Assembly (NCBI GenBank): GCA_947475095.1
Contig: CANJLG010000006.1
Span: forward strand, 1-64,000
Origin: Flavobacteriales bacterium
GTDB lineage: Bacteria > Bacteroidota > Bacteroidia > Flavobacteriales_D > Crocinitomicaceae
Direction: 5' to 3'
Length of the DNA: 64,000 bases
Under the pieces are notes generated by a model. It had not been told where the DNA came from, ran no database searches, and saw only the letters and a list, made by a program, of their open reading frames with translations. How positions within the stretch are numbered: position 1 is the stretch's first letter; every line of letters begins with the position of its first letter. This document shows, one piece after another, positions 24,257-59,416 of the stretch. A program made the position numbers and the translations under genes.

Positions 24257-25435
24257 ATGAAACGTGTTGTAGTAGGACTTTCTGGAGGAGTAGATTCTAG
24301 CGTTGCTGCTCACCTTTTGATTAAGGAAGGCTACGAAGTTATCGGTATGTTCATGCGAAATTGGCATGATGAAAGTGTTACGCTTTCGGATGAATGTCCT
24401 TGGATTGAAGATTCAAATGATGCGCTCTTAGTGGCTCAACAACTTGGCATACCTTTCCAAGTAATCGATTTAAGTGAAGCCTATAAATCTAGAATCGTGG
24501 ATTATATGTTTGATGAATATCAACGTGGCCGAACACCCAACCCAGATATTTTATGTAATCGAGAAATTAAATTCGACGTATTTCTTGAAGCGGCAATGAA
24601 ACTAGGCGCTGATTTTGTCGCCACTGGACATTATTGTCGTAAATCAGACAATAAAGACGGAAGCTATTCTTTATTAGCCGGTATCGATAAAACAAAAGAT
24701 CAATCATATTTCTTATGTCAAATTACACAAAATCAACTATCTAAAGCCCTTTTTCCGATTGGTCATCTTGAAAAACAAGAGGTTCGTAAAATTGCCATGG
24801 AGTTAAACCTTGTCACAGCAGAAAAAAAGGATTCTCAAGGATTATGCTTTGTTGGTAAAATAAGCTTACCCCTTTTTCTCCAGCAACAATTAAAAGCGAA
24901 AACCGGAGAAATTATAGAAATTCCACAGGAACTCCCTCAATATGAACTATATAACAACTTAAATGCTACTGCTAAAAATATTAGTGAATTGGCAGCTCCA
25001 TTCATCTATACAAAAGATATGGGAACTGTCGTTGGACAGCATCAGGGAGCATATTACTATACCATAGGACAACGTAAAGGATTACAAATTGGAGGAAAAC
25101 CACTTCCGAGTTTCATCATAGGTGTAGACACGATAAATAATCTGATTTATACTGGACAGTCTGAGTTACACAACGGGCTTAATAAATATGCATTAAAGAT
25201 TGAAATAAATAGTATTAATTGGCTGAATAACAATGTATTATTCAATAAAAATAATGAATTGTCTTGTCGTGTTAGAATACGTTATCGGCAACCTTTGCAG
25301 GACGCTATTTTACTTCGAGTAAATGGAGATGTGTTTATTCTTTTTTCAAAGAAACAAAAGGGTGTTACACCAGGTCAATTTGCCGCCTGGTATCAAGGCG
25401 ATGAATTAGTAGGTTCTGGTGTAATAGAACATTAA
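24257..25435 (+). CDS. mnmA: tRNA-uridine 2-sulfurtransferase
   Basis: Adds sulfur to U34 of Lys, Glu and Gln tRNAs using ATP and a persulfide carrier. 392 residues: PP-loop GLSGGVDSSVAA (7-18), NPDILCNREIKF with catalytic Cys100, GHYCR, DQSYFL, and GLCFVGK with the second cysteine, Cys197. The C-terminal beta domain contains YYTIGQRKGLQIGG and TPGQFAAWYQGDELVGSGVI. A normal full-length MnmA. TACTTTG at 24236-24242 is a near match to the -7 promoter box, with one base less between TA and TTTG. Confidence 0.97.
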   Translation: MKRVVVGLSGGVDSSVAAHLLIKEGYEVIGMFMRNWHDESVTLSDECPWIEDSNDALLVAQQLGIPFQVIDLSEAYKSRIVDYMFDEYQRGRTPNPDILCNREIKFDVFLEAAMKLGADFVATGHYCRKSDNKDGSYSLLAGIDKTKDQSYFLCQITQNQLSKALFPIGHLEKQEVRKIAMELNLVTAEKKDSQGLCFVGKISLPLFLQQQLKAKTGEIIEIPQELPQYELYNNLNATAKNISELAAPFIYTKDMGTVVGQHQGAYYYTIGQRKGLQIGGKPLPSFIIGVDTINNLIYTGQSELHNGLNKYALKIEINSINWLNNNVLFNKNNELSCRVRIRYRQPLQDAILLRVNGDVFILFSKKQKGVTPGQFAAWYQGDELVGSGVIEH

Positions 25436-25630
25436 TTAATTCATACCAATCGAAAAGAAGATTGAATTATCTTGCTCCGGCTCTTTTCCTGCATGGATAA
25501 TTTTATCCATTAAATCGGCGACTTGAAAGACATTCAAATGACTTTGTTCCCCTAATTCTCGGTGTTTTGACAATTTTAATTTCGCTTGGTGAAGCGACTT
25601 CGTTCTTAATGATTCTGTGTTAATGGTCAT
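25436..25630 (-). CDS. Small hypothetical protein
   Basis: A 64-residue reading frame, MTINTESLRTKSLHQAK to NSIFFSIGMN, charged and probably helical in its middle, with no signal peptide or known domain. Its stop codon abuts the mnmA stop from the other side. Support is limited to a sensible composition, an ATG start and the lack of another gene in this gap. I do not recognise it; it could be a chance ORF. Confidence 0.45.
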   Translation of the reverse strand: MTINTESLRTKSLHQAKLKLSKHRELGEQSHLNVFQVADLMDKIIHAGKEPEQDNSIFFSIGMN

Positions 25631-25766
25631 AACTACTATTTTAATACAGCATTTTGTACGCTAAGTATTAATCAATGTTTCAAACACAATGCCTAAATTT
25701 AAAAGTAGTTTAAATCAATTTGCTAAACAGCTATTTAGCAATAAGTTATCTTTATCAAATAGTTAA

Positions 25767-25774
25767 TTTAATAA
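25767..25774. repeat. Target-site duplication, left copy
   Basis: TTTAATAA directly before the left terminal inverted repeat of the MITE-like element; identical to 25945-25952. Confidence 0.75.
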
Positions 25775-25944
25775 TTGACTGGTCTTAATTATACCACAAG
25801 TATATTACATAACCCCAAAGGGGTTAAAGATTTTTAACGCTGGATGTAATCCAGTGAAAAAATATGAAACAGTTCGCTTTTTGGCATGTATTTTTAGTTA
25901 AAATCATGACAAAAAGATTTTGTGGTAAGAAAGAGATCAGTCAG
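25775..25944. mobile_element. MITE-like non-coding transposable element, 170 bp
   Basis: The ends are 25-base terminal inverted repeats, 25775-25799 (TTGACTGGTCTTAATTATAC...) and 25920-25944, identical at 18 of 25 positions including the TGACTG and ACCACAA ends. They are bounded by a perfect 8-bp direct repeat. The interior has no gene; it carries two perfect hairpins, AACCCC-AAA-GGGGTT (25811-25825) and CTGGAT-GTA-ATCCAG (25840-25854). This is the structure of a miniature inverted-repeat element moved by a transposase encoded elsewhere. I cannot assign it to an IS family; an 8-bp duplication is shared by several. A related end occurs at 59366-59416. Confidence 0.75.
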
Positions 25945-25952
25945 TTTAATAA
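25945..25952. repeat. Target-site duplication, right copy
   Basis: TTTAATAA directly after the right terminal inverted repeat; identical to the left copy. Confidence 0.75.
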
Positions 25953-25960
25953 GATATAAA

Positions 25961-26953
25961 TTAATGATGCTGATAACAAAAACCGCTAGGGTCTGAGGTC
26001 ATTCGTTTACACTGAGCACCTTTTTTTGTTATTCCACTGCATTGAACGGAGGATGACTGGCTACTCGTTTGTTCACGACCTGAAGGTTTATTCGCTTTCC
26101 ACGACCAACACGAAGTACAAATTGAACTTTCAAGTGAATTTTCTTGCTGATCAGGCAGATTTGGGAAAAAGTTCAAGCCAGTCAGTGCTTCCACTTTATC
26201 AATTGAAACGGCAAAACTACTTAAATCTGCCTTCGACCCTTGATTGGGAATGATAAAACCAATGGCTTTAAAGTCTGGTTGGCTGTAGTCTAAGAGGACT
26301 TTATAATAATAATTTGGAACCGAAACATTATTGGGTCCAATAGTAGATAATCCTGAACTTAATATTGGACCTGTAACCACGTACAAGGACTTATTTTCGA
26401 CCGCCCAAGTTCTGACAAGCTCTTCTAATTTTTTCCATATTCCCCTGTTAAAACTTGGGTCTTGAGGACTCATATTACTATAATAAAATGATTCTTGCAT
26501 GGTTTGGTTGGACCACGACATATCAGCAGCCGGTGCCAAATGCCCACGATCATATCCTGATCCTTTATAATCAGCATTGGTTGCGGAACCTGTTTTTATA
26601 GCTGGATCCACGATAAATTTATCCGAGCGGTCAAATTTCTTGTTGGTTTCCTCGCTTGTTAACTCATAAGCAATCCAGATGGCTTGCTCGTGTTCCTCAC
26701 TGTATAAAAGACTGTATGCAGTATGATGAACAATTGACTTTTCATTTTCCGTTGCCGGAATCTCCATATTTGGCGATGCAAGCACATCTAGCTCAGTAAT
26801 TACAACACTATCTTTACTAGTCCGGGGAATTGAATCCCTTGTCACATTCTCTATTGGGATTACCTCAACGGGAGTCTGTACATAATTGCAACTAGTACAT
26901 AAAGCTCCGATAAATAAGATAAAACCAAAAAATACACCCCTTTTTTTCCTCAT
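25961..26953 (-). CDS. Lipoprotein DNA/RNA non-specific endonuclease with Cys/His tail
   Basis: 330 residues. The start MRKKRGVFFGFILFIGALCT followed by SC is a probable lipoprotein signal (Cys22). Residues 75-275 are a NucA/NucG-type beta-beta-alpha-metal nuclease: YDRGHLAPAADM with DRGH at 135-138 (general-base His138), YYSNMSPQDPSFNRGIW with the metal-binding asparagine near 169. It should degrade DNA and RNA outside the cell for nutrition or biofilm control. The last 26 residues form a separate tail with Cys305, Cys315, Cys326 and His329 (CSGITKKGAQCKRM then GFCYQH), a small zinc-finger-like module found at the end of other secreted Bacteroidota nucleases. The stop lies 8 bases from the MITE duplication. 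Confidence 0.9.
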   Translation of the reverse strand: MRKKRGVFFGFILFIGALCTSCNYVQTPVEVIPIENVTRDSIPRTSKDSVVITELDVLASPNMEIPATENEKSIVHHTAYSLLYSEEHEQAIWIAYELTSEETNKKFDRSDKFIVDPAIKTGSATNADYKGSGYDRGHLAPAADMSWSNQTMQESFYYSNMSPQDPSFNRGIWKKLEELVRTWAVENKSLYVVTGPILSSGLSTIGPNNVSVPNYYYKVLLDYSQPDFKAIGFIIPNQGSKADLSSFAVSIDKVEALTGLNFFPNLPDQQENSLESSICTSCWSWKANKPSGREQTSSQSSSVQCSGITKKGAQCKRMTSDPSGFCYQHH

Positions 26954-26955
26954 AA

Positions 26956-28707
26956 TTAGTTCACTAATAAAGTAGCATGAATAGCATCAGCGTTACCAAT
27001 TTTCAAAGCACAACTATAAAAGCCACATGCCAATTGTTTTGTATTAATGGTAAGTTGACTTACCCCTATTTCAACAATACGCGCTACTTCTTTACCTGAA
27101 AAATCAACTACCGACAATTCCACCGTTTCTTTTTTATTATTATTAAAAGTAATAAAAGCATAAGTATCTGACGGATTCGGATAAATAATAAATGAATTTT
27201 CTTTATCTTGATAAAAAGGGAAAGTAACTTTCCACATATCTCCACCCCGTTCAATGACGAATAATTCATTACCCACTAGTACTGCATCCACAGGTAAATA
27301 AAAGCCACTTACTAAATCTAATGTTGTCATCACATAATTATCAATTGCTGCATCATAAACGAGTTTAAGCTGTCTTAATTCACGCGATGGATCTACAAAA
27401 GGACAAGGGATTCCCCAGGGTGAAATAGGTGAAAAACCAGTACTATCTCCGCCAGGCATAAAACTCAAAACAAAACCATCTCCTCTAAAAGGACTTGCTA
27501 ATACACTATCTTTATCGAAAACCAATCCCAATGGAGATGAATGTGGCGTAAATGTTGAAACGTATGAACCTTCTTCACTTGCTTTCATTACCATTCCTGT
27601 GCTAGCGTCACGGTAATAATCACCAGAAACGCCATAATTCCTTACCGGCTCCATAAATGTCACATTCGAAGGCAATGCCGGAAAAGTAGGATCATCCAAA
27701 AACCAACCAGCTGCCACTCCCCCACAATTTGGATTCACCAGCGGATCGGTCAAATAATTATAAGGTGAATTAACTAAGGGGTTAATGTTTCCACCCATAT
27801 TCCATGGAAACCCGTAGTTTTTGCCTTGCCGAATCCAATTCAATTCTTCAGGATCGTCTCGTTCTCCTGAATTATCAATTGCAAAAAGTGAATCATTACC
27901 ATCCCAAGCAAAATCGTATGCATTTCTTGTACCTGTAGCGTATATGAAGCCACTATTTTCCAACCACAATGAATCGTTAATCAAATGAATGGGCAAAGAA
28001 GAAATCGGGAATCGAAACATGCGGCAAGTCATTGGCGTTTCTCGGCAATTTGGCCAAGCTCCATTATTGTCATCCATTTCCCCCAAATGCGTTCTCGCGC
28101 CACTACTGACAAAAACATATTGACCACTTGGATCAAGCGAAACACCCGAAAAACCATGGTCACCTGTAGGACTAGCACTAGGATATGGATCACTTGAAAC
28201 GATTGTTTCCCATAAACGCGTTCCATTTGCTTGAGGCGTACCTTTTGAAATCATAGCAACACCAGTGGTACTTGTCCAATTATTTCCTGATAGATAAAGA
28301 ATACCTTCACGAAAATACAATCCTTGCAAGGAAGAAATTCCATGATCAACTTCTGAATATCGCAATGAATCTATTGCGCCACCAGCAGAATTAATGAACA
28401 CTTCATAAATATCCCCGCTTATCGTTGAATAAAAAAGATTTCCTGCTTTTTCATCATATGAAATTTTTGTAGCGTAGGGTTTGATTTCGAAAATTGAATC
28501 AACCGTTAGCTTATTCGTTAATGGGTAAACGCGTTGTTGGGCAATAGAATAATTATAAAAAAAGAAAAAAGAAAAAAATACGCACCACCCTACTCTTCTA
28601 TTTCTATGACTAGAAACAAACAAAATGTCGTTAAAAAAAAGTTGGAACATCACTTTATCCAGTAGTATCAAAATCGGTTTTGCTAGTATGAAAACAATAT
28701 CCATCAA
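26956..28707 (-). CDS. Glucose/sorbosone-dehydrogenase-like protein with T9SS sorting tail
   Basis: Up to 583 residues. The exact start is uncertain: the first ATG gives a 60-residue lead-in, and the export signal is the hydrophobic run VFFSFFFFYNYSIAQ near 43-57. The main part is a six-bladed beta-propeller of the PQQ-dependent sugar dehydrogenase superfamily, with DHGFSGVSLDPSGQYVFVSS and GTRNAYDFAWDGNDSLFAID then NSGERDDPEELN. The last 75 residues, from IYPNPSDTYAFITF to the end, are a type A T9SS sorting domain. It is probably an extracellular sugar oxidase, but quinone cofactor use is not proved. Two bases separate it from the nuclease gene, so the two exported enzymes are likely co-transcribed. 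Confidence 0.87.
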   Translation of the reverse strand: MMDIVFILAKPILILLDKVMFQLFFNDILFVSSHRNRRVGWCVFFSFFFFYNYSIAQQRVYPLTNKLTVDSIFEIKPYATKISYDEKAGNLFYSTISGDIYEVFINSAGGAIDSLRYSEVDHGISSLQGLYFREGILYLSGNNWTSTTGVAMISKGTPQANGTRLWETIVSSDPYPSASPTGDHGFSGVSLDPSGQYVFVSSGARTHLGEMDDNNGAWPNCRETPMTCRMFRFPISSLPIHLINDSLWLENSGFIYATGTRNAYDFAWDGNDSLFAIDNSGERDDPEELNWIRQGKNYGFPWNMGGNINPLVNSPYNYLTDPLVNPNCGGVAAGWFLDDPTFPALPSNVTFMEPVRNYGVSGDYYRDASTGMVMKASEEGSYVSTFTPHSSPLGLVFDKDSVLASPFRGDGFVLSFMPGGDSTGFSPISPWGIPCPFVDPSRELRQLKLVYDAAIDNYVMTTLDLVSGFYLPVDAVLVGNELFVIERGGDMWKVTFPFYQDKENSFIIYPNPSDTYAFITFNNNKKETVELSVVDFSGKEVARIVEIGVSQLTINTKQLACGFYSCALKIGNADAIHATLLVN

Positions 28708-57066: not shown

Positions 57067-59346
57067 ATGCTGAAATTTCGGCTCTATTTTGCTGTTTTCA
57101 TCATCTCAAGCTTTTGGATATGTTATAGTCAGAACGAAGATGGCCTTTCAATAGAAACCCGCGCCTATTTATTTCATATCGTAAAAAAAAGCCCAATACT
57201 TGAGCGGAATATTGGAAAAGCATTTGACTACACTGGACCAATTATAAAATTGCCTGATGGGAAATTAAATTATGATTCCATCGAGTTAATTATCGTAAAC
57301 GAACCATCTTTACTTATAATACGCAATAATTTAATTGCTACCTCACCGAAAGGATTAATTGCGGAGGCGAGCAACAAAACCGCTATTTGGGAATTATGCA
57401 AGCAAATTCAACTCGTTCTTGATAAAAAAAACAAAGAAAATACCCCCCTCATCGATGCCTATTTGAGTCACTTTTTTGATTCAATTCCAAAAAATATAAT
57501 TAGAGGAAAAATTTACGATGAGCTTTTAAATCCAAGCACAAGTCCAATTTTACAAACAAGTCTTTCCTTAAATGATCGTATAATAATATTGGATCTAATT
57601 GGGATAAAAGACAAATTAGAACAGAAACAAGTATTAGATGCACAGAATTACGCGATAAATAAAACCATAAAAGATCGTTCATTTTATATTTATAATTTAC
57701 TAGGAGGTCAAGCAACCGATTTTGAAAACATATTGTTTGCCAGCGGTGACGGTTCATACACAACAGGTCTTTTAGAAGAACGAGACAAAGATGAATATGG
57801 CGAATGGAATAAAGGACTCCCAAAAGCGATCGGATTGTTTCCTTACGACATAGACCTAGTTGGCGGTAAAAAAAAAGAATTAGAAGCTAAACGAATCTGT
57901 TCAAGAATCCTAACTACCGTTGGAAACAATAAACTAACTCAATTACACTTTGATGTCTGGGGCTACAACACTTCAAAACAAACCACTGTTGTTATCGAGC
58001 GAAATAACCAACAATACCATTTATTTGGCTCAGAAAAAACTCGTTTCTTATCGCCAGATTCAACCTTTTCAAAAGGCATCACCTTTCAACGCGTAATAAA
58101 CGACTTAGATAATTTCACTTTTAAATCGTTAAAAAATAGCATTGAAGGCAAGGGAGGATATGATGAACAGATTAAAAACACCCAAAAATACATAGCCGAG
58201 ACATTACGAATGATAAGCGAGCAAGAATCAAAATATTCAAATCTTGAGAGTTTTGATTATGTCACAAAAAAGAAACCGTCAAGGAGCAATCGTAAACTTA
58301 GAAAAAAGAATAATAATGGTGGTCCAATATCTATACAGCCCACTACAAAATCAAGACGCACAGCAAAAACAAAAAAACAAACTGAATTAATTGATCTTTA
58401 TGGTCAATACGATGAATTAAAAGCGCTTGAAGAAGAACTAATAGGAGATCGAATCCCTGTTTTAGAAGAATACACCTTAAAAAAGAAAGTTCTTGATAGC
58501 TATCGAAAAAAGATGGGCGAGAATTGGATAAGCTACACTGAAAAAGATGGACTATACACCTACTCAGATGGCGCCACATTCGATATATACACTCAAGAAT
58601 TCAGCATACCACCTGCGAAAGAAAAAGAAGAACTGATCATTAGATTAATTGCAATACCGGAAGACTTTGAGGGAGAATCATCTGATGAAGTAATGCTACA
58701 CATAAGTAAAACCGATGCTCAGCCATACTATGATTCGGATTTTCAACTAAAATTTGAGGATCGCTTTGATTCTGATAAATATAATTTCTCACAAACTATT
58801 TTTACTCCTTCAGATACCAGCATATTAAAACTAATCTTTCAAGAATTCAATAAAAAAGTTTTTCCTTGTCAAATACAGCTTCAAGCCAACGGCGTTGGTA
58901 TTTGGAACGGTGAAGCGATCATCCGCGATGAAAAACAAACAGAATTAAATGGATACCCAGGTGTAACAGCAGAAGAAAAGATGAAATCTAGGCAATCAAT
59001 GGAGTTTAAGCAACTTAGAAGTTCAAATTTATTTATTAAAATAGACCGTGCCTTAACGATAAAAGTAAATTCCTTCACAGACCCTGTAATTTCAAGTATT
59101 AATTTGGAAGAACTTAAACTGAATGATATTGAAGAGCAATATAAATTGTCAAAAAACGAACTTCTTTCTGCCCTGCGATGCATAGCATTAATCTATAAGC
59201 TGAAAGAAGAATTGGCCATTCAAGCCACAAAGTATTTAACTCAAACAGATTCAAAAAAATTTATTGATAAACTAGACGGTGCCATACAAAAATCAAAGAT
59301 TCAAATTGGAAATGTATACATCCGATTGAAAGACATTCAGCTTTAG
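57067..59346 (+). CDS. Large exported protein of unknown family
   Basis: 759 residues with a signal peptide (1-21, ending WICYSQ). No T9SS tail or known domain can be seen. The region about 400-455 is basic and probably disordered (KKPSRSNRKLRKKNNNGG then TKSRRTAKTKKQ), followed by a likely coiled coil (DELKALEEELIGDR). The first 380 residues contain an alpha/beta-looking stretch with QLHFDVWGYNTSKQTTVVIE. The C-terminus carries predicted helices. It shares its strand and a short gap with the T9SS protein before it, and a solitary MITE-like end begins 20 bases after its stop. I do not assign a function. Confidence 0.75.
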   Translation: MLKFRLYFAVFIISSFWICYSQNEDGLSIETRAYLFHIVKKSPILERNIGKAFDYTGPIIKLPDGKLNYDSIELIIVNEPSLLIIRNNLIATSPKGLIAEASNKTAIWELCKQIQLVLDKKNKENTPLIDAYLSHFFDSIPKNIIRGKIYDELLNPSTSPILQTSLSLNDRIIILDLIGIKDKLEQKQVLDAQNYAINKTIKDRSFYIYNLLGGQATDFENILFASGDGSYTTGLLEERDKDEYGEWNKGLPKAIGLFPYDIDLVGGKKKELEAKRICSRILTTVGNNKLTQLHFDVWGYNTSKQTTVVIERNNQQYHLFGSEKTRFLSPDSTFSKGITFQRVINDLDNFTFKSLKNSIEGKGGYDEQIKNTQKYIAETLRMISEQESKYSNLESFDYVTKKKPSRSNRKLRKKNNNGGPISIQPTTKSRRTAKTKKQTELIDLYGQYDELKALEEELIGDRIPVLEEYTLKKKVLDSYRKKMGENWISYTEKDGLYTYSDGATFDIYTQEFSIPPAKEKEELIIRLIAIPEDFEGESSDEVMLHISKTDAQPYYDSDFQLKFEDRFDSDKYNFSQTIFTPSDTSILKLIFQEFNKKVFPCQIQLQANGVGIWNGEAIIRDEKQTELNGYPGVTAEEKMKSRQSMEFKQLRSSNLFIKIDRALTIKVNSFTDPVISSINLEELKLNDIEEQYKLSKNELLSALRCIALIYKLKEELAIQATKYLTQTDSKKFIDKLDGAIQKSKIQIGNVYIRLKDIQL

Positions 59347-59365
59347 GACAATATAATTAGAAATA

Positions 59366-59416
59366 AGCCCAAAGGGGTTTATGTAATAGTCTAGTGGTAC
59401 AATTAAGACCAGTCAA
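59366..59416 (-). mobile_element. Solitary end of the MITE-like element family
   Basis: 59392-59416 is 23 of 25 identical to the left terminal repeat of the element at 25775-25944 in the opposite orientation, and the similarity continues inward to about 59366 including the CCCAAAGGGG hairpin core and TTATGTAATA. No partner inverted repeat and no 8-bp duplication of the flank are visible upstream, so this is a partial or decayed copy. Confidence 0.65.

Follow-up and report, generated by a model that had tools for sequence, protein, structure and literature searches.

MITEs are short (about 50-600 bp) and carry no transposase gene. The closest described systems come from Acinetobacter and from Bacteroidota. 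MITEAba12 of Acinetobacter is 111-114 bp long, and a co-resident IS, ISAba12, has been proposed as its parent (PMC6382973). In Porphyromonas gingivalis, the ends of the BrickBuilt MITE resemble those of an IS of the same genome, and its interior is a 23-nt minisatellite (PMC4596501). The Cardinium MITE derives from an element of the IS982 family, and intact parents are present (PMC9769881). No paper on a MITE of Crocinitomicaceae was found in our literature searches.

Here, we analysed a 170-bp element in a window of 64,000 nucleotides (the whole stretch of DNA under study) that is very probably a copy of a MITE family, i.e. a small DNA transposon that has no gene of its own and depends on a transposase supplied in trans; its size and its lack of a transposase gene agree with such an assignment. 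Like MITEAba12, it is short, AT-rich and devoid of genes, has terminal inverted repeats, occurs across related species and comes with target duplications, which in MITEAba12 are 9 bp long and mostly AT-rich; MITEAba12 differs, however, in its length, in its ends and in having a proposed parent, whereas none was found for the 170-bp family (PMC6382973). BrickBuilt is likewise a MITE of Bacteroidota and is regarded as an old resident of its species, and its internal tandem repeats recall an array that we describe below, but its ends are unlike those of the 170-bp family and its interior is the minisatellite (PMC4596501). The Cardinium MITE is also lineage-specific within Bacteroidota, but its intact parents set it apart from the 170-bp family, for which no parent was found and of which many copies are old (PMC9769881).

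The element and its family

The element occupies 25775-25944 on the plus strand, starts with TTGACTGGTC, finishes with GATCAGTCAG and sits between two directly read copies of TTTAATAA, at 25767-25774 and 25945-25952, exactly as the preliminary description had reported. The left (LE, 25775-25799, plus strand) and right (RE, 25920-25944, minus strand) terminal inverted repeats are conserved in the family alignments. Realignment of the ends reproduced the earlier figure of 18 identical positions out of 25 between TTGACTGGTCTTAATTATACCACAA and the reverse complement of 25920-25944, and the same arms were also detected as a 27-nt pair (25773-25799 and 25920-25946) with 74% complementarity. Instead of the two internal hairpins first described we found three, all given on the plus strand: hairpin 1 at 25810-25826 (TAACCCC-AAA-GGGGTTA), hairpin 2 at 25838-25856 (CGCTGGAT-GTA-ATCCAGTG) and hairpin 3 at 25877-25916, an imperfect palindrome with a conserved mismatch and a bulge that is well conserved in the family. 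Over 24 aligned copies, 95.8%, 97.9% and 98.2% of the cells of the three hairpins are paired; the terminal inverted repeats are kept in the same copies, with the terminal stem 82.7% paired. The 170-bp strand folds into a closed multi-branched structure (z of -9.0 as DNA and -8.5 as RNA), and none of 200 shuffles folded as well. The list of open reading frames holds none of 60 aa or more inside the element, in agreement with the earlier statement that it contains no gene. Rfam gave no match at E <= 1 over 24800-27200, by which measure the element is not a known structured RNA.

The neighbouring ORFs, of 64 aa (25436-25630) and 330 aa (25961-26953), both lie on the minus strand; from the text of the preliminary description and from motifs we take them to be the small neighbour of mnmA and a nuclease, respectively. 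The stop codon of the 330-aa ORF begins eight bases beyond the right duplication, the distance given before. A second copy in the window, at 59332-59416 on the minus strand, was found by BLASTN and is truncated to the side of LE and hairpin 1.

Is the element part of a dispersed family? In its own genome, where the preliminary description had suggested looking for further copies, BLASTN found 11 copies or fragments at E <= 1.7e-8 (out of 28 rows, with 17 at E >= 0.38 dropped). Within a set of 86 genomes of the genus, one per species, strong matches (E < 1e-10) occur in at least 11 (G000, G006, G014, G021, G062, G066, G068, G072, G073, G093 and G108; G numbers denote genomes and L numbers loci). 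Any match at all was seen in 17, and six of these (G007, G018, G076, G079, G080 and G088; best E 6.7e-4 to 0.0085) were taken as chance. A covariance model built from 16 copies, run with stricter filters and with reverse-strand echoes of palindromic copies left out of the copy count, matched in at least 10 of 61 genus genomes, one of them, G005, only at 8.7e-4. Among the matches listed, none fell in the 23 genomes searched from other families of the order; the counts from all three multi-genome searches are lower bounds. The phage and plasmid collections gave no match to the element, and an IMG/VR scan with one 31-base pattern returned none. The relatives carrying the family are MAGs. The core of hairpin 2, CTGGATNNNATCCAG, occurs 4-15 times in seven of nine scanned carriers, is absent from the carriers G014 and G068 and occurs 0-1 times in 52 other genomes. 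The copies are mostly intergenic: 48 have a gene called on both sides, and three were flagged as overlapping an ORF.

The duplication at this one site is weak evidence, since TTTAATAA is common in the AT-rich window (27 occurrences on both strands against 15.8 expected); it is now secure because of a family-wide test and an empty site in a relative. For the test, 51 copies scoring >= 100 in eight genomes (G014, G093 and G108 excluded) were reduced to 34 sites, 23 of them with both ends intact. The direct repeats at these 23 junctions had a mean score of 4.46, compared to -2.49 +/- 0.76 with the right flanks re-paired at random, and none of 2000 re-pairings scored as high. Perfect duplications of 8-10 bp were present at eight of the 23 sites, as against a mean of 0.4 and a maximum of 3 for re-paired flanks; duplications were imperfect at 15, with none recognisable at two (L146 and L162). 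A G073 copy (L156) is bounded by AAAATTAT at either end; at the orthologous site in G062 (L202), AAAATTAT occurs once and the element is absent. Such duplications are left by a transposase whose cuts in the two strands are staggered by 8-10 bases.

An empty site had also been proposed as a check for the locus studied here. In four relatives (G006, G073, G062 and G068) the orthologous locus lacks the element between the nuclease stop and the small gene; the intergenic DNA of these four is too diverged for a base-by-base reading of the uninserted target. G066 and G021, which have another gene at this locus, were left out of this comparison. Dispersed copies and relatives without the insert are thus both present, and it is because of the copies, the matched ends, the family-wide duplications and the relatives without the element that the identification as a MITE, already made in the preliminary description, is upheld. 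As a side observation, TTGACTGGTTCAATTA, which resembles the left end of the element, follows the nuclease stop at two of the sites without the element, L101 (G006) and L102 (G073). Its distance to the insertion point is some tens of bases, and it is due either to chance or to an old remnant.

Decay of the copies and possible selection on the fold

Many copies are truncated, and some are rearranged. A 55-bp form in G072 (L201:1535-1589, G072:C5) retains both ends but has lost nearly its whole interior; its flanks match those of a complete copy in G062. In G062, a tandem array (L140:1722-2275, G062:C17) consists of 5.5 copies of a 100-bp unit that comprises the internal hairpins without the terminal repeats. 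Hairpin 2 is replaced by another palindrome at L008:297-442 and L149:8390-8536, with the hairpin kept, and at L147:1538-1708 the tip of hairpin 3 is replaced by a GC-rich palindrome. A 58-bp right-end remnant occupies one orthologous intergenic site in G000, G062, G068, G072 and G073. G066 has a fuller copy that adjoins the same right-hand DNA; its left flank does not align, so this copy may or may not be the insertion that gave the remnant.

Two further observations concern these loci. The 58-bp remnant (L180:1569-1627, G000:C44, with orthologues L141, L149, L159 and L174 and a related copy, L165) is possibly a domesticated fragment. A second dispersed repeat, rich in CTCGA/TCGAG, lies near truncated copies of the element at L177:7860-7905, L140:1601-1700 and L138:2010-2110, and two of these three loci contain TCCGCC/GGCGGA motifs.

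Could the copies, though of MITE origin, now be kept by selection as structured RNA or DNA, for instance as a terminator, an mRNA end or a promoter? We consider this unlikely. The internal hairpins are 96-98% paired over the 24 copies compared to 83% for the terminal repeats, swapped arms leave a hairpin in place (L008/L149 and L147), and the 58-bp remnant was kept at one site in five species. Moreover, in 11 of 16 orthologous pairs identity is higher within the element than on average across its two 60-bp flanks; this hints weakly at constraint, as the pairs are not independent and the flanks are partly coding. However, covariation is weak in the alignment used for the pairing statistics (24 of the 34 site representatives; the 10 with a lost or doubtful end were omitted). 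Changes on both sides affect 7 pairs, compared to a mean of 4.2 in shuffled alignments, and 39 of 500 shuffles reached this value; 91.4% of cells are paired against 90.8% in shuffled alignments (9 of 500 as high), the covariation score was reached by 21 of 500, and further pair types are not above chance (324 of 500). The 48 copies with a gene on each side also lack a clear bias in their orientation to these genes (17, 11, 10 and 10), and the many truncations likewise argue against selection. At 25775-25944, the copy has just one terminator-like hairpin, and because it points against both neighbouring genes we rejected a terminator role at this site.

A still bolder reading, which we regard as very unlikely, would combine loss and use: an orphan MITE family would have outlived its transposase across the clade, and its arms would have been replaced by unrelated palindromes while the multi-branched fold persisted because it is used, as RNA or as extruded DNA, by the host or by the transposition reaction.

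Age of the insertion

Returning to the MITE family itself, 12 of the 34 distinct sites (51 well-scoring copies, eight genomes) are occupied in two to four species, which means that the family predates several speciations in the clade. At the locus studied here, the element of G072 occupies the same site, again between perfect copies of TTTAATAA; 159 of 169 positions are identical in the two elements. The DNA around this locus is 91.6-91.7% identical between both genomes, and at five other shared loci the figure is 94.9-97.1%. The insertion thus predates the split of this species from its sister G072 and is not recent. The preliminary description had concluded from the perfect duplication that the insertion was fairly recent, a dating that does not stand: the duplication is perfect in both species, so an unaltered 8-bp repeat is a poor guide to age here. 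We therefore regard a recent insertion by a still-active element as extremely unlikely, even though the perfect duplication and 93% identity to the query, a high-scoring copy from G062, speak for it. A recent exchange of the locus between both genomes could be invoked to rescue it, but the divergence of the flanks speaks against this.

The simplest view is that the element was inserted at this site in an ancestor shared by this genome and G072, once their line had parted from that of G006, G073 and G062, because precise loss in these three genomes would be less likely. Since then it would have been passed on by vertical descent, probably as a harmless spacer that separates the nuclease gene from the small gene.

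The mover and the meaning of the family

Which enzyme moved the family? The preliminary description had proposed searching for a full-length element with the same ends and a transposase. No such element was found with the pattern of the terminal inverted repeats in nine carriers, with PF01609 in 86 genomes or with PF12762 in nine. With up to three mismatches, the pattern gave 104 hits in nine of the 11 carriers (all but G093 and G108), and none of these hits formed an inward-facing pair spanning an unknown element. Of the inward-facing pairs, 20 have their ends less than 200 bp apart and correspond to MITE copies or to the deletion form; the single wider one (6.7 kb, G072:C19) has its two ends in different MITE copies. 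Eight loci with unpaired or odd hits are mostly truncated ends beside ordinary genes. The DDE_Tnp_1 domain (PF01609) was found in none of nine carriers in a first search and is absent from 10 of the 11; it matches in 11 of the 86 genus genomes, of which G093 alone carries the element. At the 14 PF01609 loci, that of G093 included, no transposase is framed by a pair of element-like ends, and the best single end match is 18 of 25 (L253, in the non-carrier G090); long flanking inverted repeats were sought at six of these loci, and contig ends interrupt several of the 14. PF12762, for IS1595-type transposases, gave no match in nine carriers. Most of the assemblies searched for the parent are drafts, and IS copies readily drop out of such assemblies.

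The ends of Tn5/IS50 start with CTGACT and its target duplications are about 9 bp long. The 170-bp family shares this start and about this duplication length with IS50/IS10-type ends of the IS4 family, but the remaining end sequence cannot be aligned without gaps, DDE_Tnp_1 is missing from 10 of 11 carriers, and there are no matching ends at the locus of G093. An origin from an IS4-family (IS50-like) element is not supported, as the search with PF01609, which served as the transposase test, found no IS4-type transposase with the same ends in a carrier.

Spread as REP/BIME-type palindromes by a RAYT (a Y1 tyrosine transposase), i.e. without an element defined by terminal repeats and target duplications, is hardly credible: GC-rich hairpins, the 100-bp tandem array of internal hairpins in G062 and the presence of Y1_Tnp genes in seven of nine scanned carriers (with only a weak partial match in G014) against 13 of 52 other genomes would suit it, but G000 and G006, both with many copies, have no Y1_Tnp match, the target duplications are present family-wide and at L156/L202, whereas RAYT spread is not known to leave any, and the element does not flank RAYT genes. 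At 20 such loci the best match was weak (E 0.0047) and fell in the non-carrier G002, and the six carrier loci divide into four with other hairpins and two without any of at least 8 pairs; with no Y1 transposase gene flanked by the repeat, REP/RAYT repeats were rejected.

For the MITE family, the mover is probably a DDE-type transposase acting in trans. Since no autonomous relative was found, we infer the mechanism from its footprints: a transposase supplied in trans would have recognised the two inverted ends of the element and would have cut its targets, AT-rich and mostly intergenic DNA, with a stagger of 8-10 bases.

In summary, the element is a MITE of an ordinary kind, and its family is, in its details and as far as our searches show, a new one. 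A freshwater clade of Flavobacteriales thereby gains a well-delimited MITE family, which also shows by example that the age of an insertion does not follow from a perfect 8-bp target duplication, the duplication being intact in two species that differ by about 8% at this locus and by 3-5% at five other shared loci. The shared insertions are usable as presence/absence markers for the clade.
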